NCBI GenBank assembly: GCA_902556505.1
Contig: CACDWM010000003.1
Coordinates: 1-64,000 of the forward strand
Origin: an uncultured Pelagibacteraceae bacterium
Lineage (GTDB): Bacteria; Pseudomonadota; Alphaproteobacteria; Pelagibacterales; Pelagibacteraceae
Length of the DNA: 64,000 nucleotides
Direction: 5' to 3'
Of this stretch, positions 3,440 to 18,182 are shown piece after piece. The position numbers and the translations under genes were made by a program. Numbering within the stretch: position 1 is the stretch's first letter; each line of letters begins with the position of its first letter. The notes beneath the pieces are model-generated. The model did no database searches and was not told the DNA's origin. It was given only the letters and a program-made list of their open reading frames with translations.

Positions 3440-4314
3440 AAGAATTATTAGTATCTATAATAATGCCAAATTATAATAATGAAAAATATTTAGCTAGGTC
3501 TGTAAAATCAGTTATTGACCAAAGTTATCAGAACTGGGAATTAATTGTAATTGATAATAGATCAAGTGATAATTCTCTAAAAGTTTTACAGGGGTTTAAT
3601 GATAAAAGAATAAAAATTTTTACCACAGATAATGAGGGTATAATTGGAAAATCCAGGAATATTGGATTAAAAAACTCCAATGGAGAATGGCTTTCTTTTT
3701 TAGACTCAGATGACTGGTGGGAACCAAAAAAACTAGAGGAAATTTTTAAAATTATAAATTCAAGTGATTATTATGATGTAGTAGTCCATAATGAATACAA
3801 AATTGATGATAAAAATAACCAAAAACATATTTTAAAGTACGGTCCTTATGAAAAAAACTTCTATGAAAAACTTATTATTTTTGGAAATAGAATTTCGCTT
3901 TCTGCAGCAACAGTTAGAAAGTCTTTTTTAAAATATCATAAAATAATATTTTCTGAGAGACGAGATCATATTACTGCAGAGGATTATGATTTATGGATAA
4001 ATATTGCAAATAATGATGGAAAATTTTATTTTTGTAAAAAAATATTAGGTAATTATTTTATTCACCAAAACAATCAATCTATAATTAACAATTTACATTT
4101 TAATAATATTATTAATGTTTCCTTACATTATGCTAAATTAGAAAATAACAAAAATTATTATTCAAAAATAATTTCAAGAAAGTATTTGCTTTTAGCAATA
4201 AATAATTTTTTAAATGTAAATTCTTTGATTTTGCTTTTTAAAAGCTTAAGATTTTCTCCATTTTATATATTTCTATTTATTTCAAATAAAATTAAATGCA
4301 AATTTTATAAATGA
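3436..4314 (+). CDS. GT2 family glycosyltransferase
   Basis: GT-A fold inverting glycosyltransferase of 292 residues. The N-terminus has SIIMPNYNNEKYLARSV and ELIVIDNRSSDNS, the standard GT2 nucleotide-binding region, and FLDSDDWWEPKKLE near residue 95 contains the metal-binding DxD. A conserved AEDYDLWINIA motif (near residue 180) supplies the catalytic base region. The C-terminal 40 residues are hydrophobic and may associate with the membrane. It presumably adds one sugar to the growing lipid-linked repeat unit. It overlaps both neighbours by four bases (ATGA). Donor and acceptor are unknown. Confidence 0.88.
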   Translation: MKELLVSIIMPNYNNEKYLARSVKSVIDQSYQNWELIVIDNRSSDNSLKVLQGFNDKRIKIFTTDNEGIIGKSRNIGLKNSNGEWLSFLDSDDWWEPKKLEEIFKIINSSDYYDVVVHNEYKIDDKNNQKHILKYGPYEKNFYEKLIIFGNRISLSAATVRKSFLKYHKIIFSERRDHITAEDYDLWINIANNDGKFYFCKKILGNYFIHQNNQSIINNLHFNNIINVSLHYAKLENNKNYYSKIISRKYLLLAINNFLNVNSLILLFKSLRFSPFYIFLFISNKIKCKFYK

Positions 4315-5258
4315 AAAAAGAATACTATTTTGAAAGCGGATCGTCCGCATTGATATTTGCTTTATTGAAAGAAAAAAAAAAAACACAAGTGGTTTTTTTG
4401 CCAGAATATATTTGTAAAAGTTTAGTGGATAGACTAAATGCAATTAAAATTAAAATTAATTACTATAAAATAAAAAAAAATTTAAGCACTGATTGGGTTG
4501 ACTTAAAAAAAAAGATTAAAACATTTAAAAATAAACAAATCTACATACTATATATAAACTATTTTGGTAAAATAAATAATAGAAAAAAATTTATTAAAAT
4601 AAAATCAAACTGTCAAAATAATAACATTGTCAAACTAATTGAAGACAATTCTCATGGTCATTACTTAAGTTATAAAAATAATAAAACAAATAAAATTGAT
4701 ATTTTATTTTCATCTCCAAAAAAAATATTTCCACAGCTATACAGTGGAGGTATTCTTTATAAAAAAAGATTTTCTGATGAAACCGAATATAATGATTTAG
4801 AAAATAAAAAAATCAAAATTTTTGGTCTACTAAAATTATTGATAAAAAATTATTTTATTAGATTTAAATTTTATTTTATTTTGAGAAAATTTATAAAAAC
4901 GAATCAAGGCTTAAATACAGAAAAAATAGATCAAAAAATAAAAAAAATAGATATTTATTCATTTAAAAAATTTAAAAAGATAAATCTAAAAAAAGAACTT
5001 AAAATAAAATTAGAAAAAAGTGAGAAAATAAATAAGAAATTAAACCAATTTAAACATAAAAAATATTTTGATTTCAATGAAAATTTACCTTGGTATTATG
5101 TATGTTTTACTCAAAATTTAATAAATAAAAAAAAAATACAAAAGTTTTGCGAAACTGAAAAAATATCCTTTTTTAATTGGCCAGAACTACCAGAAAAAAA
5201 TAAAAATAAAAGGACTAAATATATTTATGATAGAATAATATGTATTCCACTCAAATGA
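4311..5258 (+). CDS. DegT/DnrJ-fold PLP-dependent aminotransferase-like protein
   Basis: A 315-residue protein that is not an easy match, but the layout is DegT/DnrJ/EryC1-like. FESGSSALIFAL (residues 7-18) corresponds to the start of the PLP fold, LIEDNSHGHYL (109-119) to the motif with the Asp that contacts the PLP ring nitrogen, and SPKKIFPQLYSGG (135-147) to the loop with the PLP-binding lysine (K137 or K138). Sugar aminotransferases of this family are about 370 residues; this one has a shortened, lysine-rich C-terminal half, so it may be diverged in function. It overlaps the following CelD-like acyltransferase gene by ATGA, which suggests that an amino group is made and then acylated. 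An A12 run lies at 4372-4383. Confidence 0.6.
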   Translation: MKKEYYFESGSSALIFALLKEKKKTQVVFLPEYICKSLVDRLNAIKIKINYYKIKKNLSTDWVDLKKKIKTFKNKQIYILYINYFGKINNRKKFIKIKSNCQNNNIVKLIEDNSHGHYLSYKNNKTNKIDILFSSPKKIFPQLYSGGILYKKRFSDETEYNDLENKKIKIFGLLKLLIKNYFIRFKFYFILRKFIKTNQGLNTEKIDQKIKKIDIYSFKKFKKINLKKELKIKLEKSEKINKKLNQFKHKKYFDFNENLPWYYVCFTQNLINKKKIQKFCETEKISFFNWPELPEKNKNKRTKYIYDRIICIPLK

Positions 5259-6376
5259 AACAATTTCAAGATTATCAATATAAAATTGTAAGAAGTTTAG
5301 ACGACGAGAGTATAAATCAATGGGTTAAATTAGAACAGGATACAGATCCAATTGTATTTCAAAGAATTTTTTTTATAAAAAATTGGTTCAAAAATTTATA
5401 TTCTGAAAAAAAAAATAAGTTATTTATAATTTTCATATATAAGTCAGATAATTTATTAAGTGTTTTACCGTTTTGTATAAATAATTTTTTTATTTTTAAA
5501 TCATTAGAATGGATTGGAGAACCGTTTAATGACATTAACTTCCCAATTTTTAAAAAAGAGATAATAAATAAATTAAATTTTAATGAGTTTTTGAGGGAAA
5601 TATTGATAGAATTTAATGACGAGATAACTTTTATACGGCTAAAGAAACAGATTAAATGTTTCAACAATATTATTAATCCCTTACATTATAGACTATCAGT
5701 TTCATCTAGTGAAAAGAGAAAAGTTCTTTATTTTAAATCTAAAAAAGAGAGTAAACTTAGTGAATTTGAAGCTTTTATAGATAATCAGAAATCCAAACTA
5801 TTTAAAAGAATAAAACAGAGAGTTAATAAATATAATTTTATATTTAAATCGCACCAAGGAAGCAATTTAAAGTATAAAAATGAAACTCTTCAATTTCTCA
5901 TAAAAAATAAATCAGAAAAAATGACTAGAACTAAAGTGTGGAATTATTTAAGTTTTCAAAAATACAAAAATTATATTAAAGATATTCTAAATTCTAAATA
6001 TGCTCATGGGTTTGAATTATATTTAAATAAAAAACTAATAGCGTGTCAAATTGGATATAAAATCAAAAATCATTACTATTATATTTTCCCTGCTTATAAT
6101 AATGACTATAAGAGTATATCACCAGGTCACCTAGGAATTTATTTTTTACTAAGAGAATTAATTAATGAGCAAAATAATATAACTTTTGATTTTACGATTG
6201 GTAATGAAACTTATAAAGATTATTGGATCAATCAAGAAGAGCATCTTTTTACAAACTATTATTATAAAAATTTTATTGGAAAATTTTTAATAAATCTAAT
6301 TATTTATTTTGATTATAATAGGAATTTTCCTATCTTAAAAAAATTAAAACAAATATATATAAAATTTAAAAAATGA
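5255..6376 (+). CDS. CelD/BioF2-like GNAT acyltransferase
   Basis: Resembles the BioF2-like/CelD (FemAB-related) GNAT acyltransferases found in polysaccharide clusters. The C-terminal half has the typical layout: a basic helix, ELYLNKKLIACQIGYK (a GNAT beta strand pair), YIFPAYNNDYKSISPGHLG (acyl-CoA-binding turn) and DFTIGNETYKDYW near the end, a hallmark of the family. I placed the start at the ATG at 5255, which overlaps the previous stop as in neighbouring pairs; an ATG at 5240 is also in frame. The likely job is N- or O-acylation of a sugar, perhaps the amino sugar made by the preceding DegT-like protein. The substrate is inference from context. Confidence 0.7.
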   Translation: MKQFQDYQYKIVRSLDDESINQWVKLEQDTDPIVFQRIFFIKNWFKNLYSEKKNKLFIIFIYKSDNLLSVLPFCINNFFIFKSLEWIGEPFNDINFPIFKKEIINKLNFNEFLREILIEFNDEITFIRLKKQIKCFNNIINPLHYRLSVSSSEKRKVLYFKSKKESKLSEFEAFIDNQKSKLFKRIKQRVNKYNFIFKSHQGSNLKYKNETLQFLIKNKSEKMTRTKVWNYLSFQKYKNYIKDILNSKYAHGFELYLNKKLIACQIGYKIKNHYYYIFPAYNNDYKSISPGHLGIYFLLRELINEQNNITFDFTIGNETYKDYWINQEEHLFTNYYYKNFIGKFLINLIIYFDYNRNFPILKKLKQIYIKFKK

Positions 6377-7473
6377 TTAAAACTTTTAAAAATATTAATT
6401 TAAATAATTTCTATTTTTTAATATTTATTATTACCAGTTTCGTTGCTGAATATAAATTTTTTACAAGTTCGTTTTTATCTTATTTATTGGTTATTTTTTA
6501 CATTTTTTTTAATATTAAAAAAATAACTTTGAATAAAAAACAATATTTATTTTTTTTAGGTTTTTCTTTTTACTTATTTATAATAATTTTTTATTCAAGT
6601 GATTTAATAATACTTTTTAAAAATGTTAAGTTTTGGTTTGGATTTACTTTAGTTTATATTTTTTTTAAGTGTTTTAAGGATAATTTTAACTATTTGTTTT
6701 TTTTTAGATTTTGCTGCTTAATAATAATAATTGAAGCAATATTGATTAATACTATTATTGATCAGGACATATTATATTTAAGACCAACAATTGCGACTTT
6801 TTTTGGATTTTATCAGAGACCTCCTTCTATATGTGGAACACCCACTATTTCAGCAGTATTTATTGTGTTATATTTTTATTTTCTTCAACTTACTCTAAAA
6901 AAAATATCCTTTATTGACCTGAGTATTTTTTTAATTGCATTGTTTTGTTTGTTTTCTATGACTGGTTTTATTTTAGCTTATTTTTTAATTATTTTATATT
7001 TTTTTAACAAAGATAATAAGAATATAACATATTGGAATTTTTTTACTTCATTTACAATTATATCAATAACAGGCTTATTAGTACTATTTTTTTTAGAAAA
7101 AATATTCTATGAAGAGCATTTTAATTTTCAAAAACTGACACTTTCTTATTTTTATTACACTGTTGTTGATCATTTTTCATCTTTATCTAAAATATTTCAA
7201 ATAAGAAATTCTTACTTAGAAGCTATAATTGGCATTCAAATTAAACAATTACATACATCTGGTGATAATGCATATTCTGTATTTTTCTTACAAAATGGAA
7301 TAATTGGTATTTTAATGTTTTTTTCATTTTTTGCATCTTCGCTAAAATTTACAAAGAATGAATTAACAAAATTTTTAATTATTTTTTTGTCATGCTTTCA
7401 TTATTACTCACTAGGTAATATTTTAGTACAGATAATAGTTGCAAAAATTTTGACTCAAAATCAAAGAGACTAA
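6373..7473 (+). CDS. polytopic membrane protein, Wzy-like polysaccharide polymerase candidate
   Basis: Strongly hydrophobic 366-residue protein with roughly ten predicted transmembrane segments and a larger periplasmic loop in the second half (about residues 240-300, including the NSYLEAIIG and SGDNAYSVFFLQNG stretches). The second of these, an extracytoplasmic loop followed by a membrane span beginning NGIIGILMFF, matches the end of O-antigen polymerase (Wzy) domains. It overlaps the acyltransferase by ATGA and is followed one base later by a glycosyltransferase. Role: polymerisation of lipid-linked repeat units in the periplasm. Wzy proteins are poorly conserved, so this rests on topology and context. 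Confidence 0.6.
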   Translation: MIKTFKNINLNNFYFLIFIITSFVAEYKFFTSSFLSYLLVIFYIFFNIKKITLNKKQYLFFLGFSFYLFIIIFYSSDLIILFKNVKFWFGFTLVYIFFKCFKDNFNYLFFFRFCCLIIIIEAILINTIIDQDILYLRPTIATFFGFYQRPPSICGTPTISAVFIVLYFYFLQLTLKKISFIDLSIFLIALFCLFSMTGFILAYFLIILYFFNKDNKNITYWNFFTSFTIISITGLLVLFFLEKIFYEEHFNFQKLTLSYFYYTVVDHFSSLSKIFQIRNSYLEAIIGIQIKQLHTSGDNAYSVFFLQNGIIGILMFFSFFASSLKFTKNELTKFLIIFLSCFHYYSLGNILVQIIVAKILTQNQRD

Positions 7474-7474
7474 A

Positions 7475-8374
7475 ATGAATGTATCAATTATTATTCCATA
7501 CAAAAATGAGGAAAAAAACATAATTTATACAGCAAAAAAAATTTTAGAGCAAAACTATAAAAAATATGAAGTAATTTTTATAAACTCAAATTCAAATGAC
7601 TCAAGTTTTAAATTATTAGATAATTTTATTTATAAAAAAAAATTAAAAAATTTTAGAAATATTTCAAAAAATACTTTGTATCCGTCAGACTCCAAAAATG
7701 AAGGCATAAAATTATCTAAGTATGAATATATCTCTTTTATGGACTGTGGTTTAAAATTTGACAAAAATTGGCTTGATAAACAAGTTAAATTTTTAAAAAA
7801 AAATAAACAAAATATAGTTTTGGGTAATTTATTCTCATCTGCTTCACAATCATTTGATAAAGCTGTAATTTCTCAAACATGGGGTTTAAATCGATTAATA
7901 AATGTTATCCCCGGAACCTTAATTAAAAAAAATTTATTAAAAAAAACTGGAAATTTTAAAGTTTTAAGAGCTGGCTATGATAGAATCTGGATATTGAATG
8001 TAAGACAAAAGTTTAAAGTATTAGATAATAAAGAAAATATATTGAAATATCGTGATAAAAGTGACTCTAATAATTTAATTAAATTGTTTAATAAAATTTA
8101 TTTATATTCATACCACTCAAGTGAAATTTTTAAAAAAAAAAAATTTATATATTTAGTTGTATTTTTGATTTTTATGTTTTCTTCTGTATATATTCATTTA
8201 ATGAATTCTATTTTAGTTTATACAATTTTGAGATTATTGTTTCCTTTTTTAAAATCAAAAAAAATTTATGACTTATGTGACTTAAGAACACTTTTATTCT
8301 TAATTCCAGTTGGTTTCATAATTGATTTTGCAAGAATATTGGCTTTTTTTAAAAAATTAGTTAAATCTATTTAA
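7475..8374 (+). CDS. GT2 family glycosyltransferase with C-terminal membrane segments
   Basis: N-terminal GT2 domain: SIIIPYKNEEKNI, then YEVIFINSNSNDSS (nucleotide binding) and SFMDCGLKFDKNWL where the metal-binding DxD would be. Here the sequence is D-C-G, so the second acidic residue is missing. AGYDRIWILNVR near residue 166 fits the acceptor/catalytic region only loosely. The last 80 residues form two or three hydrophobic spans, so the protein is probably membrane-attached. It is the last plus-strand gene before a convergent pair and its stop interlocks with that of the minus-strand neighbour in a shared TTAA. An A12 run lies at 8132-8143. Confidence 0.78.
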   Translation: MNVSIIIPYKNEEKNIIYTAKKILEQNYKKYEVIFINSNSNDSSFKLLDNFIYKKKLKNFRNISKNTLYPSDSKNEGIKLSKYEYISFMDCGLKFDKNWLDKQVKFLKKNKQNIVLGNLFSSASQSFDKAVISQTWGLNRLINVIPGTLIKKNLLKKTGNFKVLRAGYDRIWILNVRQKFKVLDNKENILKYRDKSDSNNLIKLFNKIYLYSYHSSEIFKKKKFIYLVVFLIFMFSSVYIHLMNSILVYTILRLLFPFLKSKKIYDLCDLRTLLFLIPVGFIIDFARILAFFKKLVKSI

Positions 8375-9279
8375 TTAAGATTTTTCTGGTACCAATCAAA
8401 TGTTTTTTTTATTGCATCTTCAAATTTAGTGAAATGAAATTTTTTTAATTTTAATTCTTTCATAACTTTAAGATTTGAAACATAAACCTCTTTTACCTCA
8501 CCGTCATTAAATTTTCTTTTTTTAATTTTGATATTAGGGTTAATATTATTTAATATTTTTAAATAATGATTAATAGAATTAGATTTAGGTGACGAGATAT
8601 TATATGTTCCACTTTTTGCTTTAAACAATTTAATAATTATTTTTGTTAAATCCTCAACAAATATAAAGTTTCTAACTTGTTTTCCATTACCAAAAATACT
8701 AATTACATCGTTTGATAACGCTCTTATAATGGAATTATGGATTAAGCTTTTTTTATGTATTGAGTATGGACCAAAAACATTTGAAAATCTTAAATGAATT
8801 ATTCTACACTTTAAATTTTTTGATAATATTTTTGAGTAATCTTCATTAAATTTTTTAGTTAACCCATAAATTGAAACAGGTAGTGTAGGTGATTTTTCAT
8901 TAGATATTTTCGATGTATTTCCGTAAATTGCCCCCGCAGTAGAAGCATTCATAAAAACTTTACATTTAGATGTTTTTAACGATTCAAGAATATTGGCGTA
9001 AGTAATAATATTATTTTTTACTGAGTAAATTGGTTTATTTAAAGATTCAATTACCCCAGTTTGAGATGCTAAATTTAAAATAACCTCATAGTTAATAAAT
9101 ATTTTTTTTAACTTATTTATATCTGATAAATTATTTTTTATTATTTTACATTTGATAAATTTCAAATTATTTTTAATAGTGTAATTGTCTAATATAGTAA
9201 TTTGATAATTTCTTTTTTTTAGTTCTTTGAATAAATTTGTCCCAATAAATCCTAAACCTCCGATAATTAAAATTTTCAT
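8371..9279 (-). CDS. NAD-dependent epimerase/dehydratase (UDP-glucose 4-epimerase-like)
   Basis: Extended SDR of 302 residues. GGLGFIGTNLFKEL (residues 7-20) is the NAD-binding fingerprint, MNASTAGAIYGN carries the catalytic serine/threonine region and SIYGLTKKFNE provides YxxxK. HLRFSNVFGP is the conserved Arg-Asn-Gly motif, and FGNGKQVRNFIFVEDL is the substrate-binding loop of the GalE-like group. Likely substrate: a UDP-linked sugar such as UDP-glucose, UDP-GlcNAc or a uronate. It is transcribed against its neighbours together with the Wzz-like gene (ATGA overlap), forming a two-gene minus-strand unit. Confidence 0.82.
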   Translation of the reverse strand: MKILIIGGLGFIGTNLFKELKKRNYQITILDNYTIKNNLKFIKCKIIKNNLSDINKLKKIFINYEVILNLASQTGVIESLNKPIYSVKNNIITYANILESLKTSKCKVFMNASTAGAIYGNTSKISNEKSPTLPVSIYGLTKKFNEDYSKILSKNLKCRIIHLRFSNVFGPYSIHKKSLIHNSIIRALSNDVISIFGNGKQVRNFIFVEDLTKIIIKLFKAKSGTYNISSPKSNSINHYLKILNNINPNIKIKKRKFNDGEVKEVYVSNLKVMKELKLKKFHFTKFEDAIKKTFDWYQKNLN

Positions 9280-10040
9280 TTATTGTTACTGAAATTAGAA
9301 TTTAATGTTTGTATTAGTATACCAACTAAAATAGAAAAAAATAAAGCTAATATAAAATGAAATTGATTATTATTTATAATTTTAGTTTTTTTAGATACAT
9401 ATAATCTCGTTACATTATTTTCTTTTTTTAACAATTCAATTGTCTTAGCTAATTGTTTTGATTTTAATTTATTAAAATTTTTTTGTGATGAGTATCTTTC
9501 AAGATAATTAATTAGATCTAAGATAATAATTTTATTGGCATCAATAAATATTTCTTTAACTTTATTATCTAATTCTTTAAAATCATTTCCATAAACATTT
9601 ACGTTAAATTCATGTTGCAGACCTGCTGTATTCCATTTATTTTCAAAATAACCAAAATTAGATTTTTCTTCTCCAGCAATATAAAAATTTTCATTAAACA
9701 TTGTATCAACAATCGATATGTAATGATAAAAAATAGTCAAGGGTGATAAAGCTTGCCGAGAAAAACTATCATCAGCAACACTTATTTCTCGTGAGCCTTT
9801 TTCGTCTACTAATTTTAATTCAACGTCTGAGTATAAAAAAAGTTTCGAAAAACTAATGTAGCTTATTGGAACTATTCTTATATGTTGCTCGTATTTAAAA
9901 CTGTTTATTTTGCTGGAATTAAGGAATAAAATCCCAACTAAAATTAAAAATATTATACTTGAATGCAAAAAAATTTTTTTTTTTCGATTTTTTAGAAAAG
10001 CAAAATATTCAATAAAATTTAAATTTTCGTTATTTTTCAT
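9276..10040 (-). CDS. Wzz-like chain-length determinant protein
   Basis: A 254-residue protein with one transmembrane helix near residues 23-40 and a second near 227-246, separated by a mostly polar periplasmic region with a helical lysine-rich stretch just before the second helix. This two-helix topology and the N-terminal FIEYFAFLKNRKKKIFLH fit the polysaccharide co-polymerase (Wzz) family, which controls how many repeat units the Wzy polymerase joins. It is shorter than typical Wzz (about 320-370 residues) and the usual proline-rich motif by the second helix is not evident. It has no tyrosine-kinase domain. It begins a two-gene minus-strand operon, divergent from the sulfoquinovose synthase gene. 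Confidence 0.65.
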   Translation of the reverse strand: MKNNENLNFIEYFAFLKNRKKKIFLHSSIIFLILVGILFLNSSKINSFKYEQHIRIVPISYISFSKLFLYSDVELKLVDEKGSREISVADDSFSRQALSPLTIFYHYISIVDTMFNENFYIAGEEKSNFGYFENKWNTAGLQHEFNVNVYGNDFKELDNKVKEIFIDANKIIILDLINYLERYSSQKNFNKLKSKQLAKTIELLKKENNVTRLYVSKKTKIINNNQFHFILALFFSILVGILIQTLNSNFSNNK

Positions 10041-10107: not shown

Positions 10108-11268
10108 ATGAGAACACTTATCTTAGGAGGAGACGGTTTTTGCGGATGGGCTTCAGCACTTAGACTATCAAGAAAAGGTCATGATGTTTATATCGTTGAC
10201 AATTTATCAAGAAGAAAAATAGACAGAATTTTAAAAACCAAGTCTCTAACTCCTATCAAATCTATAAACCAAAGAATATACACTTGGAATAAAATTAATA
10301 AAAAAAAGATAAAATTTTACAATATTGATATTTCAAAAGATTTTAAGGGTCTCGATTATTTAATAAAAAAAATAAAACCTGATACCATTGTACATTTTGC
10401 CGAACAAAGATCTGCACCATATAGCATGAAGAGTATTGAGAGTAGAAATTATACTATAACTAATAATCTAATAACCAATAATAACGTTCTCTATTCAATT
10501 GCGAAAAATAACAAAAAGATACATTTAATTCATCTAGGTACGATGGGAGTTTATGGTTATGACTTTAGCAAGTATTTAATTCCTGAAGGTTACTATAAAG
10601 CTAAACTATTTATTAAAAGTAATGTAATAAATACTAAAATTCTTCATCCTGCATCCCCTGGTAGTATCTATCATTTAACAAAAGCCCAAGATGAACTACT
10701 TTTTCAATTTTATCAAAATATGTATGGATTAAAAATTACTGATTTACACCAAGGTGTTGTTTGGGGCACAAATACCAATGAAACCCTTTTACATAAGGAT
10801 TTGTGTAATAGATATGATTATGATGGCGACTATGGAACCGTTTTAAATAGATTTATAATGCAGGCTGCTCTTAAATTTCCATTAACCATTCATGGTAGTG
10901 GCAATCAAGTAAGACCATTTATAAATATAAATAATACCGCAGATTGTATTTTGTTAGCGTCTGAAAATAAAAAAAGATTTAACAAGGTAAATATTTTTAA
11001 TCAACTGACAGAAACTCATAGGTTGATAAATTTAGCTAAAAAAATTAGTTCGATAAGTAATTGTAAAATTCAACATCTAAAAAATCCAAGAATTGAAAAT
11101 GAAAACAATACCTTGATTGCTAAACCAATGGGATTAATTGAACTTGGATTAAAACCTATATATTTATCTAAAGATTTTTTAATAAAAGAAATTGAATTCG
11201 TAAAAAAATATTTGAAAAGAGCTGACAAAAAAAAAATATTAGCAAAAAGTAAGTGGAAAATAAATTAA
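10108..11268 (+). CDS. sqdB: UDP-sulfoquinovose synthase
   Basis: Converts UDP-glucose plus sulfite to UDP-sulfoquinovose, using NAD. The sequence follows plant SQD1 and bacterial SqdB closely: GGDGFCGWASALRLS (residues 8-22) is the family-specific Rossmann motif, HFAEQRSAPYSMKS (near 99) is the active-site signature that sets this group apart from ordinary epimerases, HLGTMGVYG contains the catalytic Thr region, and YHLTKAQDE supplies YxxxK. DLHQGVVWG, FNQLTETH and LGLKPIYLSKD are also matched. Length 386 is normal. The neighbours are polysaccharide genes rather than the lipid transferase SqdX, so the product may feed a sulfonated glycan rather than, or in addition to, sulfolipid. Confidence 0.93.
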   Translation: MRTLILGGDGFCGWASALRLSRKGHDVYIVDNLSRRKIDRILKTKSLTPIKSINQRIYTWNKINKKKIKFYNIDISKDFKGLDYLIKKIKPDTIVHFAEQRSAPYSMKSIESRNYTITNNLITNNNVLYSIAKNNKKIHLIHLGTMGVYGYDFSKYLIPEGYYKAKLFIKSNVINTKILHPASPGSIYHLTKAQDELLFQFYQNMYGLKITDLHQGVVWGTNTNETLLHKDLCNRYDYDGDYGTVLNRFIMQAALKFPLTIHGSGNQVRPFININNTADCILLASENKKRFNKVNIFNQLTETHRLINLAKKISSISNCKIQHLKNPRIENENNTLIAKPMGLIELGLKPIYLSKDFLIKEIEFVKKYLKRADKKKILAKSKWKIN

Positions 11269-11285
11269 TTAAAATAGTTCTATAA

Positions 11286-12377
11286 ATGAACTTCTATCTA
11301 ATATCAAATTCTTATAAATCTTTTTATTTGTTTCGTAGAGAAATTATAAATGAACTTTCAAAAAAATATAATGTTATTTTAATTGCAAATGAAGATAGGT
11401 ATTTAAAATATTTTAATAAAAAGTATGAGTGCCACTATTTAAACAATTTGTTCAACAATAAGAATATATTTTATAATTTAATTTTAGTTTTTAAAATATT
11501 ATCAATTTTTATTAGAAAAAAACCTAATGTTGTTCAAACTTATACAATTCACCCAAATTTGTTATGCATTCCTATTGCAAAAATATTTTTTTCTAAAACA
11601 TCAGCAATGATAACAGGGATGGGTGCCACATCTGTTAGTAAAAATTTAATTTTAAAAAGAATAATCGATATTTTTTATAAATTTTCTTTTTTATTTTGTG
11701 ATCATATTATTTATGTAAATGAACATGATAAAAAATATTTCTATAATAATCTCAAAATAAAAGTAAAAAACACAAATATTTACGGTGCAGGGGTAAAAAA
11801 AGTTAAAAATATTGTAACTAAAGATATTTTATTTCATAAATATAGTCTAGGTTCAACTTTTAATATCGTTTTTATAGGAAGATTAATTCAAGAAAAAGGT
11901 ATTTTGGATGCGATTAAAATATTTAAATTACTTAAGATTGCAAATAAAAGATTAATTATAGTTGGAGATCTAGATGCTAGAGGTTTTTCAGTTTCAATTG
12001 ATAAAAAAATTTTTAAATACCCAGGTATAATATTTGTAGGTGAAATTCTAAATACAGATAATATTTATAAGTTTGCAGATATTTTTATATTACCATCAAT
12101 TACCGAAGGTATGCCAACATCCCTAATGGAGGCTATTATGAATGATGTAGTAACTATTTCTTATAAAATTCCTGGCGTAGATGATTTAATTAAAAATAAA
12201 ATTAATGGAATAAAATTAAAAAAATATTCTATTAACTCTGCAGTAAATGAAATTCATAAAATCCATAAATCAAAAATATATAGAAAATTTTTGATAAATA
12301 ATTCAGAAAAGTTAAAATCTAAAATAGATAGAAATATTGTCGTAAAAAAAGTTCTTAGAATATATGAGCAATTCTAA
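11286..12377 (+). CDS. GT4 family glycosyltransferase (CapM/PglA-like)
   Basis: GT-B fold retaining glycosyltransferase of 363 residues. The N-terminal domain has the FYLISNSYKSFYLFRRE opening and the MITGMGATSVS segment typical of CapM/PglA-type transferases that act on undecaprenyl-diphosphate sugars. The C-terminal domain has VFIGRLIQEKGILDAI and the EX7E motif in PSITEGMPTSLMEAIMN. It follows the sqdB-like gene by 17 bases and overlaps the next gene by 14, so the product of UDP-sulfoquinovose synthase is a plausible donor. It does not look like the sulfolipid synthase SqdX. Donor assignment is inference. Confidence 0.85.
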   Translation: MNFYLISNSYKSFYLFRREIINELSKKYNVILIANEDRYLKYFNKKYECHYLNNLFNNKNIFYNLILVFKILSIFIRKKPNVVQTYTIHPNLLCIPIAKIFFSKTSAMITGMGATSVSKNLILKRIIDIFYKFSFLFCDHIIYVNEHDKKYFYNNLKIKVKNTNIYGAGVKKVKNIVTKDILFHKYSLGSTFNIVFIGRLIQEKGILDAIKIFKLLKIANKRLIIVGDLDARGFSVSIDKKIFKYPGIIFVGEILNTDNIYKFADIFILPSITEGMPTSLMEAIMNDVVTISYKIPGVDDLIKNKINGIKLKKYSINSAVNEIHKIHKSKIYRKFLINNSEKLKSKIDRNIVVKKVLRIYEQF

Positions 12378-13617
12378 ATTTGAAGAAAATGTAAACGATA
12401 AATTATTAAATATTTATAAAATATTAATACTAATTTTTCCTATTTTAATTGTAAGTGGAAATTTTATTTCGAATGGAGTTGTAGTTTTATCTTTTCCAAT
12501 AATTTTTTATATTATTTTAACTAGAAAAAAAACAAATTTTTTTTTAAATAATGAAGTTTTATTAGTCCTTTTAGTATTTCTATATTTCTTATTGTCGTCA
12601 ATAATCTCAAAAAATATTTACTCAATTGAATATTCATCAAGATATTTAAGATTTTTTACATTTATCCTTGTTGTTTATTATTTTTTAAAACTTGACGAGA
12701 AATTTGAAAAAAAATTTCTCAAATTATTTAATTTACTTTTTTTCATTCTTTTAATAGACGGTTTTTATCAATATTTAAATGGATCAAATTTTTTAGGAAT
12801 TGAAAAAAAAGTAGATCATAGAATAAGTGGACTTTTTGGTGATGAACTTATTCTTGGAAGTTTTATTTCTAAGTATATTTTTGTTTTTTTTATCTATTAT
12901 TTTTTTTTCAAAAAAAATAATAAATTTATTTTCTTATTTTTTTTAATTTCCTTGATTGCGTTAACTTACATAAGTGGTGAAAGAGTTGCTTTTTTTTCTA
13001 TTATTGTTTTTTCGACATTAGCTTTGTTAAAATTTGCTAAATTTAAAGAATTATTTATATTTTTTTTATTTTTAGTGTCTATTTTAATTATGATTACTAT
13101 TAAAGACTCAACAACTAGAGAAAGAATGATAACTGAAACCCTTAAACAAACAAAATTCCTTAAAGAGTGGAAGAATCCCAAGAAGATATTGTTTTATTCA
13201 GATGATCATAACGCTCATTACCAAAGTGCATATTTAATGTTTAAGAAGGGGAATTATAAGCATAAGTTATTTGGTAGAGGTTTTAAGTCATTTAGAACTA
13301 ATTGTTCAAAAAAAATGTTTTGTGATACTCCTGGAGGGTGCTGCTCCACACATCCTCATAATGTATTTTTTCAAGTAATTTCTGAAACAGGTTTGATAGG
13401 TTTTGCGATTTATTTATATTTCTTTTTAAATTTGCTAAGAAATATTGTTATCACATACTTAAAAAAAATTAATAAACCAAAGTTTTTTTTAATTAATTTA
13501 TCTCTTTTTGTTAATTTACTTCCAATTGTGCCGTCTGGTAATATATTTGGAAGCTTCATGTCATTCAACTTTGCAATATTAATTAGTTATTATATTTACT
13601 TAAAACAAAATGAATAA
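12364..13617 (+). CDS. O-antigen ligase/polymerase (WaaL/Wzy_C family), copy 1
   Basis: Polytopic membrane protein of 417 residues with about ten to twelve spans. It carries the Wzy_C hallmark, a large periplasmic loop (about residues 245-330) that ends in STHPHNVFFQVISETGLIGF; the HPHN histidine and following Glu are typical of WaaL-type ligases. Earlier motifs YSSRYLRFF and SGERVAFF contain the arginines expected to contact the undecaprenyl pyrophosphate donor. It is clearly paralogous to the protein at 19334-20635 (shared GDE/NDE..LGS, GER and CSTHPHN motifs). Role: joining finished glycan to lipid A-core or another acceptor, or polymerising repeat units. Confidence 0.82.
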   Translation: MSNSKFEENVNDKLLNIYKILILIFPILIVSGNFISNGVVVLSFPIIFYIILTRKKTNFFLNNEVLLVLLVFLYFLLSSIISKNIYSIEYSSRYLRFFTFILVVYYFLKLDEKFEKKFLKLFNLLFFILLIDGFYQYLNGSNFLGIEKKVDHRISGLFGDELILGSFISKYIFVFFIYYFFFKKNNKFIFLFFLISLIALTYISGERVAFFSIIVFSTLALLKFAKFKELFIFFLFLVSILIMITIKDSTTRERMITETLKQTKFLKEWKNPKKILFYSDDHNAHYQSAYLMFKKGNYKHKLFGRGFKSFRTNCSKKMFCDTPGGCCSTHPHNVFFQVISETGLIGFAIYLYFFLNLLRNIVITYLKKINKPKFFLINLSLFVNLLPIVPSGNIFGSFMSFNFAILISYYIYLKQNE

Positions 13618-14620
13618 TTTTTTATTTATATCAACTTTATTTATTATTATTAATTTTATAATTATATATTTTTTTGAGAAAAATTATAATTTAATAAATA
13701 TCTACGACAATCCAATTGCTGAAATAAAATCTCACTCAAAAAAAATGCCAATTTATGGAGGTATTTTATTTTATATTAATTTTGTTATATTTTTCTTTTT
13801 AGATATATCTTTTTTGAAGTTGTTTTTTTTAGAATTTGACAGATTTTCAATATCATTCTTTATCTGTTTAACTTTTATATTTTTAGTTGGAATCATAGAT
13901 GATAAAAATAATTTAAACCCTTTAAATAAATCAATTTGTATAATTTTATTTTCCTCAATTTTATTATTATTAAATAATAATTTAATTGTTTCTGAATTAA
14001 AATTAGACTTAATAGATAAAATTTATTTTTACAATTTTTCTTTTTTATTTAACTTAATATGTATTTTCTTATTTGTTAATGCTTACAATATGTTAGATGG
14101 TGAAAATCTTAATATTGCTGGTTTTAATTTTTTTATTTTATTATTCTTATTTTACAAAACGTCATTTAATTTGATGTTTTTAATTTTTATTATTTCAAAT
14201 ATTTTTTTTTCAATTCAAAATTATAGAAATTTAACCTTTTTTGGTAATAATGGATCTCATTTTTTTAGTTTTTTTCTATCAATTATTTTAATTTATTGTT
14301 TTAAATATTTCGATTCAATTAATGAAGAAGATATTATACTAGTTTTAATTTTTCCTGTTGCAGAGTTGTTAAGACTTTTTTTTATGAGAATTTATAAAAA
14401 TAAAAGTCCATTCGTTGGAGACAAAAATCACTTTCATCATTTAAGTACAAAAATTTTTGGTAAATTGAGAGGAATAATTTTTTGTCAATTTTTTATTGCC
14501 TTATCTCTCTTTTTAGATTTTATATTACAATTATATTTATGGTATATTGTGACTATTTTCTTTGTATCTTATTTTGTAACAATTTATTTAATGAACATAA
14601 TTATAAAAAAACAACAATAA
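13610..14620 (+). CDS. WecA/MraY-family undecaprenyl-phosphate sugar-1-phosphate transferase
   Basis: Initiates a lipid-linked glycan by moving a sugar-1-phosphate (commonly GlcNAc- or QuiNAc-type) from a UDP donor onto undecaprenyl phosphate. The diagnostic polyprenyl-transferase motifs are all present: GIIDDKNNL (Mg-binding DD, near residue 100), NAYNMLDGEN (NxxNxxDG, near 156), and DKNHFHHL (the HxHH-type motif, near 275). About ten transmembrane spans over 336 residues. It overlaps the upstream ligase by eight bases. It is the only initiating transferase seen in the window, so the glycans built here are probably started by this enzyme. The sugar specificity is not readable from sequence. 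Confidence 0.9.
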   Translation: MNNFLFISTLFIIINFIIIYFFEKNYNLINIYDNPIAEIKSHSKKMPIYGGILFYINFVIFFFLDISFLKLFFLEFDRFSISFFICLTFIFLVGIIDDKNNLNPLNKSICIILFSSILLLLNNNLIVSELKLDLIDKIYFYNFSFLFNLICIFLFVNAYNMLDGENLNIAGFNFFILLFLFYKTSFNLMFLIFIISNIFFSIQNYRNLTFFGNNGSHFFSFFLSIILIYCFKYFDSINEEDIILVLIFPVAELLRLFFMRIYKNKSPFVGDKNHFHHLSTKIFGKLRGIIFCQFFIALSLFLDFILQLYLWYIVTIFFVSYFVTIYLMNIIIKKQQ

Positions 14621-14632
14621 AATTAAAATAAT

Positions 14633-15382
14633 TTGCAAAATAAAAATAAAAAAAAAATTGCCTCTATATTAAGTTCTGTTTTTAGTAAAAAAAATATAGG
14701 AAATAGGATATTTACTTACCATTCTATTAATTACAAAAAAAATAATCTAACTTCTAATTTATATCAATTAAATCCAAAGCTATTTTTTGATCAAATGAAT
14801 TATTTGATAAATAATAAATCAAATTTTAATAAAATATCTCAATTTGATAACTTGAAATCTAATTTTCTAATAACTTTTGATGATGGATATAAGAATCTTA
14901 AAATTAATGATATAATTAGTTTTTTAAATAAAAATAAAATTCACTGCATAATATTTGTATGTCCTGAATTTGTAAATTCTAATAATAAATACTATCTCAA
15001 TAAAAATGATTTATTAGAAATTTGTCAAAGTAAGTATATTGATATAGGATCACATTCCTATCAGCATAAAAAACTTACCGAATTGAAATATAAAGATCTA
15101 AATTTTCAATTAGATTTTAGCAAAAAATGGTTAGAGGATTTATTATCAAAGCCAGTCAAATCTATTGCTTATCCTTTTGGAGCTTTTAATGAAAGAGTAA
15201 TTAAATCTGTAGAAAGTGCTGGGTACGATTATGGCTTCACTACTAGATTTAATTTTTATGATAAAATAAATGAAAAATTTAAGATACCTAGAATAGATAT
15301 ATGGAATAATGATGATTTAAAAACCTTTAGAAGAAAAGAGGAAGGCAGATGGAATTGGATGAAATTTTTTTCAAAGTATTAA
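14633..15382 (+). CDS. polysaccharide deacetylase (NodB/CE4 family)
   Basis: Carbohydrate esterase family 4 protein that removes N-acetyl groups from amino sugars. Motif 1 LITFDDGYKNL (near residue 80) gives the catalytic Asp and metal-binding Asp; motif 2 IGSHSYQHKKL (near 140) gives the two metal-binding histidines; motif 3 AYPFGAFNERV (near 180) is also present. The start codon is TTG, 12 bases after the preceding stop. At 249 residues it is a bare catalytic domain without signal peptide, so it likely acts on a cytoplasmic or membrane-bound intermediate, for instance to trim the first sugar added by the adjacent WecA-like enzyme. Confidence 0.88.
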   Translation: MQNKNKKKIASILSSVFSKKNIGNRIFTYHSINYKKNNLTSNLYQLNPKLFFDQMNYLINNKSNFNKISQFDNLKSNFLITFDDGYKNLKINDIISFLNKNKIHCIIFVCPEFVNSNNKYYLNKNDLLEICQSKYIDIGSHSYQHKKLTELKYKDLNFQLDFSKKWLEDLLSKPVKSIAYPFGAFNERVIKSVESAGYDYGFTTRFNFYDKINEKFKIPRIDIWNNDDLKTFRRKEEGRWNWMKFFSKY

Positions 15383-15450: not shown

Positions 15451-16458
15451 ATGCATGTTTTCATCACAGGTATTGCTGGATTTTTAGGTTCACACTTAGC
15501 ACAAAGATGTTTAGAGCTTGGTCACAAGGTTTCAGGATGTGATAATTTAGTTGGCGGAAATTTAGACAATATAAATGAATTAAATGTAAAATTTTACAAA
15601 GCAAATTGTGAAAATCTTGATGAAATGACAAAAATAATGGTAGGTACTGATGTTTTATGTCATGCAGCTGCATATGCTCACGAAGGTTTATCAAACGTAT
15701 CACCAAATTTAATTTGCCAAAATAATGTAGTTGGCTCAACTTCAGTATTTACTGCAGCAATTAGAAATCATGTTAAAAGAATTGTTTTTTGTTCTTCTAT
15801 GGCCAGATATGGAAAAATTAAAGCACCTTTTGAAGAAAATAATGATCCAAAACCAGTAGACCCATATGGAGTTTCAAAACTAGCAGCAGAAAATATATTA
15901 AAAATATTATCTTCAACATATAAATTTGAATATAATATTGCCATACCACACAACATTATTGGTACAAAACAAAAATATGATGATGCCTTTAGGAATGTTG
16001 CATCAATTATGATTAATCTGATTTTGCAAGATCGTAAACCTATAATTTATGGAGATGGAAATCAAAAGCGATGTTTTTCTGATATTTATGACTGTATAAA
16101 TTGTATTGAAAAATTATTATTTGATAAAAATATTTTTTCAGAAACAGTCAATATTGGACCAGATGAGGAATTTATTACTATAAATCAACTTTTTGAAAAA
16201 ATATCCAATAAACTTCAATTTAATAAAGGACCTGAGTATCATAGTAGTAGACCTAATGAGGTTTTTGAAGCTTTGTGTTCTTCAGATAAAGCAAGAAAAT
16301 TACTTGGATATAAAACAACGAAAACTTTAGATCAATCATTAGACGACATGATTAGTTATATAAAAAAAAAAGGACCTAAAAAGTTTGAATATAATTATGA
16401 AATTGAGATCGAAAATGAGAAAGTAATACCTCAAACTTGGAAGAATAGAATCTTTTAA
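15451..16458 (+). CDS. NAD-dependent epimerase (UDP-sugar 4-epimerase-like)
   Basis: Extended SDR of 335 residues. GIAGFLGSHLAQRC (residues 7-20) is the NAD fingerprint, DVLCHAAAYAHEG fits the central motif, CSSMARYG carries the catalytic serine region and DPYGVSKLAAEN the YxxxK pair. GDGNQKRCFSDIYDC and NIGPDEEFITI are the GalE-like C-terminal substrate motifs. It starts after a 68-base gap, so it may head its own unit with the sugar nucleotidyltransferase and dehydratase that follow. Its composition is less lysine-rich and its DNA less A-rich than neighbouring island genes, closer to core genes, which hints at a different age or stronger constraint. Substrate unknown. Confidence 0.83.
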   Translation: MHVFITGIAGFLGSHLAQRCLELGHKVSGCDNLVGGNLDNINELNVKFYKANCENLDEMTKIMVGTDVLCHAAAYAHEGLSNVSPNLICQNNVVGSTSVFTAAIRNHVKRIVFCSSMARYGKIKAPFEENNDPKPVDPYGVSKLAAENILKILSSTYKFEYNIAIPHNIIGTKQKYDDAFRNVASIMINLILQDRKPIIYGDGNQKRCFSDIYDCINCIEKLLFDKNIFSETVNIGPDEEFITINQLFEKISNKLQFNKGPEYHSSRPNEVFEALCSSDKARKLLGYKTTKTLDQSLDDMISYIKKKGPKKFEYNYEIEIENEKVIPQTWKNRIF

Positions 16459-16467
16459 TTAAAAATT

Positions 16468-17166
16468 ATGTATAAAAAATTTAAGAAAGACTTAACAGTA
16501 ATTGTTTTATGTGGTGGCAAAGGAAAAAGACTTTACCCCTTAACTAAAAATATTCCAAAACCACTTATTAAAATTAAAAATAAACCTATTTTAAAATATA
16601 TTATTGATCATCTTAAGAGTTATGAAATTAAAAATTTTATAATTGCAACAGGTTATAAACACAAATTATTTACAAAATTTGTTAAAAAGCTAAATGTAAG
16701 TGATTTTAATTTTAGAATTGTTAATTCAGGGATTAATGTTGATATAATAAAGAGAATAAAAGATTGCTCAAAAAAAATTAATAAAAATATTTTAGTCTGC
16801 TATGGTGATACTTTAGTTGATTTGAATATAAATAATTTAATTTCATTTTATAATAAAAATAAAAATAAGATTGTATTTTCCTCTTACACTTTAAAATCAC
16901 AATATGGGATAATTAAAATTGGAAAAAAAGGCAAAGTTTTATCTTTTAATGAAAAACCTGATTTAGGGATGTATTTTAATATTGGATATTTTTTGTTTGA
17001 TAAAAAAAATATTATAAAAATGAAAAAATATACTAAATTTGAAAAATTTTTAGAAAGTAGATCAATACAAAAAGATTTGAGGAGTTATATTCACTACGGA
17101 AAACACATAACTATAAATACATTAAGTGAACTAAGTGATGCAAAACTAAATTTAAAAAATATCTAA
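16468..17166 (+). CDS. sugar-1-phosphate nucleotidyltransferase
   Basis: A 232-residue GT-A-like nucleotidyltransferase. The signature VIVLCGGKGKRLYPLT (residues 11-26) binds the nucleotide triphosphate, NIPKPLIKI carries the phosphate-contacting Lys, and CYGDTLVDLN near residue 112 is the metal-binding region. It resembles both rfbF-type cytidylyltransferases and RmlA/HddC-like proteins; because the next gene is like CDP-glucose 4,6-dehydratase, a CDP- or GDP-linked sugar is the likeliest product. It lies 9 bases after the epimerase and 5 before the dehydratase. It lacks an acyltransferase (left-handed beta helix) domain, so it is not GlmU-like. Confidence 0.8.
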   Translation: MYKKFKKDLTVIVLCGGKGKRLYPLTKNIPKPLIKIKNKPILKYIIDHLKSYEIKNFIIATGYKHKLFTKFVKKLNVSDFNFRIVNSGINVDIIKRIKDCSKKINKNILVCYGDTLVDLNINNLISFYNKNKNKIVFSSYTLKSQYGIIKIGKKGKVLSFNEKPDLGMYFNIGYFLFDKKNIIKMKKYTKFEKFLESRSIQKDLRSYIHYGKHITINTLSELSDAKLNLKNI

Positions 17167-17171
17167 TTAGT

Positions 17172-18182
17172 ATGAATAAAAAATTCTGGAAAAAAAAAAA
17201 AATTTTAATAACCGGAATAGATGGTTTTGTTGGATCTAATTTAGCAAAAGAATTGGTTATTCTTGAATCAAATGTAAGTGGAATTGTATTCAAAAAAAAA
17301 AAAAGGTCTCTTTTATATTTTGAAGGCATCAGTAAAAAATGTAAATTATACAAGGGAGATATATCAGATTATCATTTTTTAAAAAAAATATTTAAAAAAA
17401 ATAATTTTGATATAGTTTTTCACTTAGCTGCACAAGTTGAAGTTGGTGTTGCAAATTCTGATCCTTTTCAAACTTGGGAAAGTAATATTAAGGGGACTTA
17501 TAATTTATTAGACATAATAAATAAGAGTAAAAATGTAAAATCAATAATCGTTGCATCATCAGATAAGGCTTATGGTACGTATCCAAAGAAGTCACTACCT
17601 TATAAAGAAAATTACAAATCAGCAGCAATTTATCCTTATGATGTATCTAAAGCGTGTGCAGATATGATATCGAAAACGTATTCTTCAAAATTATTTAATT
17701 TACCAATAATTATAACAAGATTTTCTAATATTTATGGTCCTGGCCAAATACACTTTAGTGCTTTAATTCCCGACTTAATGAAATCGATTATTAAAGATAC
17801 AAAATTTGTTCCTAGAGGTAATGGTTCAGATATTAGAGATTATATTTATGTTAAAGATATAGTTGACATTTATTTGATAATTTCCTCAAAACTCTTTAAA
17901 GATCCAAAACTTAGAGGTCAAGTTTTTAATGCTGGAAATAATAAACCAAAAACAATTAAATCAATTATTAAAGAACTATATTTATATAAAAATCAAAAAG
18001 AAAAACTTAGAAAAATTTTAAATATCATGAAGAACAAAAAAACTGTTGGTGAAATTAAATATCAATATATGGATTATTCAAAACTTTATAAATATTTTAA
18101 ATGGAAGCCAAAATATAAATTTAAAAATACAATACCAATTTTATTTAAATGGTATAGCAACTTCTTTCAAAAATATAATTAA
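17172..18182 (+). CDS. NAD-dependent sugar 4,6-dehydratase (RfbG-like)
   Basis: Extended SDR of 336 residues. GIDGFVGSNLAKEL (near residue 15) is the Rossmann motif, FHLAAQVEVGVA follows, ASSDKAYGTYP matches the SDKAYG variant seen in CDP-glucose and related dehydratases, and YPYDVSKACADM supplies YxxxK. FSNIYGPGQ and GNGSDIRDYIYV complete the substrate site. It is related to the rfbG product at 1125-2204 but not a close copy. It follows a nucleotidyltransferase by 5 bases, which makes a second sugar-nucleotide module. Two A13 runs lie at 17190-17202 and 17292-17304. Its stop interlocks with that of the minus-strand neighbour in a shared TTAA. Confidence 0.82.
   Translation: MNKKFWKKKKILITGIDGFVGSNLAKELVILESNVSGIVFKKKKRSLLYFEGISKKCKLYKGDISDYHFLKKIFKKNNFDIVFHLAAQVEVGVANSDPFQTWESNIKGTYNLLDIINKSKNVKSIIVASSDKAYGTYPKKSLPYKENYKSAAIYPYDVSKACADMISKTYSSKLFNLPIIITRFSNIYGPGQIHFSALIPDLMKSIIKDTKFVPRGNGSDIRDYIYVKDIVDIYLIISSKLFKDPKLRGQVFNAGNNKPKTIKSIIKELYLYKNQKEKLRKILNIMKNKKTVGEIKYQYMDYSKLYKYFKWKPKYKFKNTIPILFKWYSNFFQKYN

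Follow-up and report, generated by a model that had tools for sequence, protein, structure and literature searches.

A UDP-sulfoquinovose synthase-type gene at the head of a surface-glycan gene run in an uncultured Pelagibacteraceae bacterium

The 64,000-nucleotide stretch analyzed here (the window; positions 1 to 64,000 of contig CACDWM010000003.1, assembly GCA_902556505.1, from an uncultured Pelagibacteraceae bacterium) harbors, at positions 10108 to 11268 of the plus strand, a gene whose product is a full-length member of the SqdB-type uridine diphosphate (UDP)-sulfoquinovose (UDP-SQ) synthase family. The gene heads a compact run of glycan biosynthesis genes, and we propose, with confidence moderately above even, that its product is an active UDP-SQ synthase whose product is employed in a surface glycan. 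This is the best of the options considered, and it rests on the repetition of such a setting across loci rather than on a single missing sqdX. As an enzyme the synthase is ordinary; its genomic setting is unusual. Two uses of sulfoquinovose (SQ) are named in the available part of a 2026 review (PMC12890257): it forms the head group of sulfolipids, in phototrophs and in at least one further bacterium, and it occurs in archaeal N-glycans. A bacterial surface polysaccharide containing SQ was not found among the matches listed in the literature searched, which covers few subscription journals; SQ being already known in bacterial lipids and archaeal N-glycans, its presence in a bacterial surface polymer is what would be new.

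Identity and predicted structure of the synthase

The open reading frame (ORF) at 10108 to 11268 is intact, begins with ATG, and encodes 386 amino acids (aa). An original prediction, made from the nucleotide sequence alone, had described its product as an sqdB-like protein with the motifs GGDGFCGWA and FAEQRSAPYSM; both are present exactly as written there, and a phmmer comparison aligned residues 2 to 384 with Arabidopsis SQD1 (E value, 5.9e-88), to which the protein is 43% identical. The NCBIfam model NF041015 matched the protein with an E value of 3.1e-99 and 332.5 bits, which is under its equivalog cut-off of 575 bits. The reading of this score as a sign of a different enzyme was rejected, as 10 chosen members of the same subfamily scored alike (328.0 to 354.5 bits, all under 575); a Prochlorococcus protein encoded next to SqdX reached 333.0 bits, and two proteins from sqdB-SqdD-SqdC loci reached 337.9 and 328.0 bits. 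Because these tested relatives fall in the range of the window protein, the cut-off is taken to separate subfamilies and not functions, and one of two matching control genomes was likewise under it.

An AlphaFold2 model of the synthase (32 alignment rows) displayed a mean predicted local distance difference test score of 89.1 and a predicted template modeling (TM) score of 0.90. When this predicted structure was searched with Foldseek, the three top PDB matches were SQD1 (query TM score, 0.94; root mean square deviation, 2.0), and the remaining 47 of the 50 matches listed had query TM scores of 0.69 or less. The structural check suggested with the original prediction thus returned a predicted SQD1 fold rather than a generic short-chain dehydrogenase/reductase epimerase fold.

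The catalytic residues were assessed by reference to Agl3, the UDP-SQ synthase of S-layer N-glycosylation in Sulfolobus acidocaldarius. According to the available part of the report on Agl3 (PMC4388408), alanine mutants of H95, R101, M145, Y182, and K186 are inactive, and the alanine mutant of E147 retains 12.4% activity. All five essential residues are kept in the window protein as H96, R101, M146, Y188, and K192, the positions having been mapped through SQD1 numbering and short contexts in the primer table of that report, with the Agl3 sequence itself outside the alignment; T145 is also kept. The position of E147 is occupied by valine, which is also found in 103 of 103 other subfamily members, and the change therefore belongs to the subfamily. 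The group signature [ST]MG...YxxxK, as given in the accessible part of PMC8987622, is represented by GTMG and YHLTK. Among 135 columns that are near-invariant (conserved in at least 97% of the 103 other members), the synthase keeps 120 and is changed at 15.

On the basis of these sequence features and the predicted structure, the protein very probably possesses UDP-SQ synthase activity. It resembles SQD1/SqdB of established sulfolipid systems (Arabidopsis SQD1, Rhodobacter sphaeroides sqdBDC, and cyanobacterial sqdB-sqdX) in predicted fold, catalytic residues, and length. By the mechanism proposed for Agl3, the reaction would commence with nicotinamide adenine dinucleotide-dependent oxidation of UDP-glucose at C4, followed by 5,6-dehydration; sulfite would then add to C6, and the hydride would be given back.

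The operon-like run, its island, and copies in the order

The synthase gene is followed on the same strand, after 17 bp, by a gene for a glycosyltransferase family 4 (GT4) protein (11286 to 12377; PF00534, 82.2 bits). The claim that the neighboring gene encodes a GT4 protein and not SqdX was borne out: its product is 24% identical to a Prochlorococcus reference protein which we take to be SqdX, and every NCBIfam match is far below its cut-off, that to TuaC (63.9 bits) being the best. The GT4 gene overlaps by 14 bp a gene for a Wzy_C ligase/polymerase-type membrane protein (12364 to 13617), whose PF04932 match just clears the cut-off (33.0 versus 31.7 bits) and which in turn overlaps by 8 bp a gene for a WecA-like polyprenyl-phosphate sugar phosphotransferase (13610 to 14620; PF00953, 41.4 bits; cut-off, 27). 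A polysaccharide deacetylase family gene (14633 to 15382; PF01522, 76.2 bits) follows, the successive gaps from sqdB onward thus being 17, −14, −8, and 12 bp. A polyprenyl-phosphate transferase, glycosyltransferases, and Wzy_C proteins are therefore encoded together in one run, with matches to PF00953, PF00534, PF00535, and PF04932 over cut-off. The surroundings given in the original prediction, a ligase, a WecA-like protein, and a Wzz-like protein, were consequently recovered for the first two, the ligase barely; the “Wzz-like” protein (9276 to 10040, minus strand) is a divergent membrane protein without a Pfam or NCBIfam match and carries that label by reading alone.

In the pathway proposed here, UDP-SQ would supply SQ to a surface glycan assembled on a lipid carrier. 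Synthesis of this glycan would be initiated by the WecA-like phosphotransferase (13610), its extension would be a function of the island glycosyltransferases, and the product would be passed on by the Wzy_C-type proteins. The GT4 protein encoded at 11286 to 12377 is the first candidate for the transfer of SQ, with UDP-SQ as its presumed donor. Such a role would parallel that of Agl3, a UDP-SQ synthase that likewise serves a surface glycan and shares the same five essential residues, although Agl3 acts on an archaeal N-glycan and possesses E147 where the subfamily of the window protein has valine.

At the level of the order, 9 of 397 genomes contained a match to the window protein at an E value of 1e-40 or less, and three of the 397 carried a gene of this type, namely, the window's genome, G311, and G335. 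All three copies are located among sugar genes. The G311 copy (L168:9380-10525), whose genome belongs to a different family within the order, lies in a one-strand gene array and overlaps by 4 bp a gene for a glycosyltransferase family 2 (GT2) protein (PF00535, 33.6 bits). The same array encodes a Bac_transf sugar transferase (PF02397), a GT4 protein (PF00534), a CapD-type protein (PF02719, 372 bits), a Wzy_C protein (70.5 bits) with 30% identity to that of the window, a nucleotidyltransferase, and a UDP-glucose dehydrogenase-type protein; the other direct neighbor of the synthase and two further membrane-type genes returned no Pfam match. The G335 copy, on a 5.6-kb contig (L169), shares 4 bp with a gene for a GT2 fusion protein (PF00535, 77.5 bits; AglJ-like, 99 bits against a cut-off of 325) and 10 bp with an epimerase-type gene.

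The window run belongs to an island spanning positions 421 to 23305, whose right edge is marked by a transhydrogenase-type (AlaDh/PNT) flank gene (23738 to 24826, plus strand; PF01262, 200.8 bits). This flank gene is present in 11 of 15 same-genus genomes, that of the window included. In the five genomes compared, out of the 10 others possessing it, sqdB was not found in the 18.7 to 19.1 kb preceding the flank gene, and the same five relatives yielded matches of only 24 to 39% identity to the window island proteins. Three flank stretches read by ORF (G152, G078, and G902) are rich in sugar genes, by reading. When 296 other genomes were searched at the level of the order, the GT4 protein of the run (11286 to 12377) had no match at an E value of 1e-30 or less. 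Because the cargo at this flank differs between relatives and the GT4 protein lacks a match, this glycan island is taken to be variable, with sqdB and the adjoining GT4 gene belonging to its changing content.

Additional genes of the island are consistent with a glycan locus. On the plus strand, these specify a nucleoside diphosphate (NDP)-sugar epimerase/dehydratase (15451 to 16458; PF01370, 149.9 bits), a sugar nucleotidyltransferase (16468 to 17166; PF00483, 93.6 bits), an NDP-sugar dehydratase (17172 to 18182; PF16363, 179 bits), a second Wzy_C ligase/polymerase-type protein (19334 to 20635; PF04932, 61.7 bits), two GT2 proteins (3436 to 4314 and 7475 to 8374; PF00535, 117.3 and 77.1 bits, respectively), and, as the last ORF before the flank gene, a GT4/DUF1972 glycosyltransferase (22244 to 23305; PF00534, 48.1 bits; PF09314, 46.8 bits). 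On the minus strand, an NDP-sugar epimerase gene (8371 to 9279; PF01370, 140.5 bits) overlaps the 9276 to 10040 gene by 4 bp. Six of the 24 island ORFs lack a Pfam match: the Wzz-like one and those at 2189 to 2563, 4311 to 5258, 6373 to 7473, 18179 to 19273, and 21448 to 22257, several of which appear membrane-like by reading. No Wzx flippase or Wzz was recognized by Pfam among the 24 ORFs scanned in the island. The island extends to the left end of the contig, the first base of the window being also that of the contig, so that part of it may be missing. The G+C fraction of the island ORFs ranges from 0.167 to 0.281, that of sqdB (0.270) being the second highest.

Further SqdB-like genes occur in the family, where 9 of 297 genomes matched NF041015 at an E value of 1e-20 or less. 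The eight besides the window's were rejected as equivalents, as they represent two other types. Those eight loci and two more from the order-level search (L111 to L118, L170, and L171; synthase-like genes also as L009 to L014, L016, and L017) have NeuB encoded in the stretch in 10 of 10 cases; NeuC, tested at one such locus, was over cut-off. All five type B proteins have proline at the essential Arg101 position and, judged by this change, probably make a product other than UDP-SQ and perhaps act in nonulosonic acid synthesis.

Sulfolipid synthesis and other explanations

The genomic neighborhoods of the subfamily were examined to a defined extent. A scan of genome contigs identified at least 590 relatives, from which the best 80 (48 to 54% identical to the window protein) were kept; these, together with 5 plasmid loci and 20 class- or order-level genome stretches, make up the 105 loci probed with neighbor profiles, and the resulting counts describe near relatives rather than the whole family. 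L101 (a plasmid row, approximately 40% identical and with an odd long branch) and L170 and L171 (of another type) were left out. The labels SqdX, SqdD, and SqdC given to neighbors are presumptive, being assigned from gene order; the Prochlorococcus “SqdX” itself matches best, among NCBIfam models, that of another lipid glycosyltransferase, far below its cut-off (148.8 bits; cut-off, 480).

An SqdX-type gene was located within 3.5 kb of the synthase at 10 of 105 loci and an SqdD/SqdC-type gene beside it at 5, the latter resembling the R. sphaeroides sqdBDC operon, so the subfamily includes members adjoining sulfolipid-type genes. Other probed sugar genes were near the synthase at 21 loci. At 66 loci there was no probed neighbor of either the lipid or the sugar kind. 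The probe set is small, however, and among these 66 are loci which closer inspection shows to be sugar islands, for example, that of G311 (L168). A 3′-phosphoadenylyl sulfate (PAPS) reductase (CysH) gene lies within 4 kb at six loci (L037, L044, L054, L085, L099, and L100), three of which are among those with sugar genes, as if the sulfite supply traveled along; the CysH of L099 is over the PRK02090 cut-off. Where at least 3.5 kb was available on both sides, an SqdX, SqdD, or SqdC neighbor was absent from 63 of 76 loci (13 have one), and from 90 of 105 when short loci are counted. The missing sqdX neighbor was, therefore, rejected as proof of a glycan role. The original suggestion of a sulfonated surface polysaccharide is supported in that the synthase belongs to the appropriate subfamily and lies in a glycan run, that both other order-level copies lie among sugar genes, and that the searches described below found no SqdD and no SqdX relative besides an Agt-type one; its argument from the absence of a neighboring sqdX is weak.

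A maximum-likelihood tree was built from 126 rows. The window protein and 106 further rows, namely L101 and 105 members of this type, form a clade in it (Shimodaira-Hasegawa-like approximate likelihood ratio test, 99) that stands apart from SQD1 and from the other SAR11 types. The phylogenetic check proposed earlier thereby placed the protein in its subfamily as a whole rather than beside particular kin, its end branch being long (2.5) and its composition skewed. Five sqdBDC-type rows form one clade (support, 100). Another (98) consists of five Rhodobacterales rows, among them two plasmid copies (Pelagovum and strain M382) near PAPS reductase and glycosyltransferase genes. From these two clades it seems that the same subfamily has, within the Rhodobacterales, both a lipid line and a sugar-locus line; the sqdBDC operon of R. 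sphaeroides is described in the accessible part of PMC11346425.

The main rival to a glycan role is the synthesis of sulfoquinovosyl diacylglycerol (SQDG), in which UDP-SQ would be transferred to diacylglycerol by an Agt-type GT4 protein or an unrecognized transferase, and the place of the gene in the island would be an accident of gene gain. SQDG synthesis is the known function of the subfamily, and the 66 loci lacking probed neighbors make position a poor guide. Known sulfolipid loci differ from that of the window, in which sqdB heads a surface-glycan run, its GT4 neighbor has low identity to SqdX, and no SqdD was found in the genome, which is 73.6% complete, so that absences cover its assembled part; SqdC was not searched for there. 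SqdD was likewise not found in G311 or G335, the same search having matched two positive-control genomes, nor in nine SAR11 genomes first searched, in a search without a control.

The best SqdX match in the window genome is a 335-aa GT4 protein (G000:C6), with 33% identity over 315 residues to the SqdX query and 30% over 312 columns to Prochlorococcus SqdX. Its gene is directly behind a PlcP-like gene and is followed by a histidine kinase gene and, by reading, a PstS-like gene. Such an order corresponds to the Agt arrangement. The name PlcP is itself given by reading; the best NCBIfam match of the PlcP-like protein is UDP-2,3-diacylglucosamine diphosphatase (47 bits; cut-off, 134). Given this arrangement, the 335-aa protein was rejected as a true SqdX, and the genome-wide search called for by the original prediction accordingly yielded no SqdD and, as the closest SqdX relative, an Agt-type protein. 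As stated in the part of PMC8231724 that is available, the characterized Pelagibacter Agt accepts UDP-glucose, UDP-galactose, and UDP-glucuronic acid with diacylglycerol, whereas UDP-linked xylose, rhamnose, mannose, and fructose are not used; the donors mentioned in that part do not include UDP-SQ. The SAR11 plcP-agt (Agt/GTcp) glycolipid pathway resembles the system proposed here in belonging to the same genome and producing phosphorus-free envelope glycoconjugates, and is unlike it in acting on diacylglycerol with those donors (PMC8231724) and in occupying a separate locus.

Although the broad donor range of the Agt homologue, which extends to an acidic sugar (PMC8231724), and the resemblance of the 335-aa protein to SqdX favor SQDG synthesis, Agt-type matches were present in 17 of 21 synthase-bearing genomes searched, both SqdD genomes included, and also in six of the eight SAR11 genomes that lack a synthase of this type; Agt-type gene presence, therefore, does not indicate SQDG. 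The tight coupling of the synthase to glycan genes and the location of all three order-level copies in sugar loci also argue against this route, which we regard as unlikely. A canonical Pho box was not detected in the window at three or fewer mismatches. In a PlcP/Agt-like cassette (L127:3249-7023), three CTGTAAC-type direct repeats were observed, one before plcP and two overlapping before pstS, and this repeat is possibly a local Pho box. The pattern drawn from this plcP/pstS region, where it occurs three times, was found 0 times in the window against 0.86 expected by chance; as fewer than one site is expected, its absence is weak evidence against SQDG synthesis. The further proposal that an acidic glycan would save phosphorus was supported by nothing found.

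Less probable still is a relative of the synthase with another product, for instance, UDP-6-deoxy-5,6-ene-glucose or the adduct of another C6 nucleophile, for an unusual, sulfur-free sugar. Agl3 yields the 5,6-ene without sulfite, according to the available part of PMC4388408, some wider-family branches with altered key residues sit beside NeuB genes, and the branch of the window protein is long; set against this are the retention of the five essential residues and T145 and an NF041015 score close to those of the SqdX-adjoining and sqdBDC-type proteins. The rarity of the gene in the order (3 of 397 genomes) and the 15 changed columns could suggest that it is decaying, or is not expressed, and is merely carried along in an island subject to rapid exchange. 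This is very improbable for an open frame in a small genome with intact catalytic residues at the head of a compact run.

Several points weigh against the use of UDP-SQ in a surface glycan. Gene absences are not final in an incomplete genome, an Agt-type gene is present in it, and UDP-SQ diffuses, so that operon position leaves a lipid use possible. The G311 copy is a weak parallel: it has glutamine at the essential His95 position, for which reason its activity is doubtful, and it groups with phage copies. No glycosyltransferase gene of the window has a close match around the other two copies, and thus no transferase partner is conserved. Lastly, the long branch and skewed composition of the window protein could hide a change of function.

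Sulfite supply, phage copies, and implications

A source of sulfite is plausibly provided by taurine. A sulfate-reducing CysH was not found in the nine genomes searched: PF01507 matches, present in seven of them, lie in frames of 519 to 524 aa (524 aa in the window genome), which is not CysH length, and they were rejected as CysH; we take these frames, by their length, to be GuaA. Xsc is encoded in the window genome (961.6 bits; cut-off, 676.4) and is over cut-off in six of the nine genomes, with TauE-like and YeiH-like genes near it, by reading. As no sulfate-reducing CysH was found, the sulfite for UDP-SQ would plausibly be released from taurine via Xsc.

A scan of viral contigs retrieved 88 relatives of the synthase, 80 of which were kept (L221 to L300), with flanks of up to 6 kb per side and often less. 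All the Agl3-essential residues are kept in 52 of the 80 copies and not in 28, 15 of which have proline at R101. No SqdD match was obtained at an E value of 1e-5 or less in the flanks of the 80 copies, and the SqdX profile gave only two matches there, both weak (45 and 24 bits). On six viral contigs read by ORF, the neighbors resemble glycosyltransferases, methyltransferases, and sugar epimerases; among 10 such neighbors tested (two contigs), GT2, epimerase, and FkbM methyltransferase matches were over cut-off, as was one odd CRAL_TRIO_N match, GT25 and GT8 matches were just under it, and four had no match. PhoH, exonuclease, and DNA-binding phage families lie near the synthase on one viral contig. 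Named phages provided no match at an E value of 1e-5 or less in 50,697 records.

The G311 copy belongs to a clade of 44 rows (support, 0.985) in which the other 43 are viral, and it shares 65.7% identity with two of these; on this sequence evidence, exchange of the synthase between phage and host island is likely at G311. A phage origin of the window gene is unsupported: the gene shares with the phage copies a setting of UDP-SQ-synthase-type genes among sugar and methyltransferase genes, but it lies outside the large viral clade, yet on a long branch and in a wider clade with 21 viral rows among 126. A phage-borne synthase is not new as such, because a putative UDP-SQ synthase is already on record for a Mu-like virus (PMC7785012, available part), and the host-recognition regions of pelagimyophages are described as rich in glycosyltransferases in the accessible part of PMC7029224.

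An intact-looking sulfosugar synthase heading a surface-polymer run suggests that the coat of this bacterium may carry a sulfosugar. More tentatively, SQ may be a unit that can be exchanged in and out of the surface glycans of marine bacteria. Streamlined bacteria without sulfate assimilation would use sulfite from taurine to make a sulfonated coat, while the synthase would move between host islands and phage glycosyltransferase cassettes, changing the receptor seen by other phages. Were the glycan role correct, a bacterial SQ surface polymer would represent a further oceanic source of this organosulfur compound and a use for taurine-released sulfite in organisms in which CysH was not found. 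It would also constitute a charged, phosphorus-free receptor trait whose synthase is encoded by phages as well, and environmental surveys should then not take sqdB by itself to indicate SQDG.

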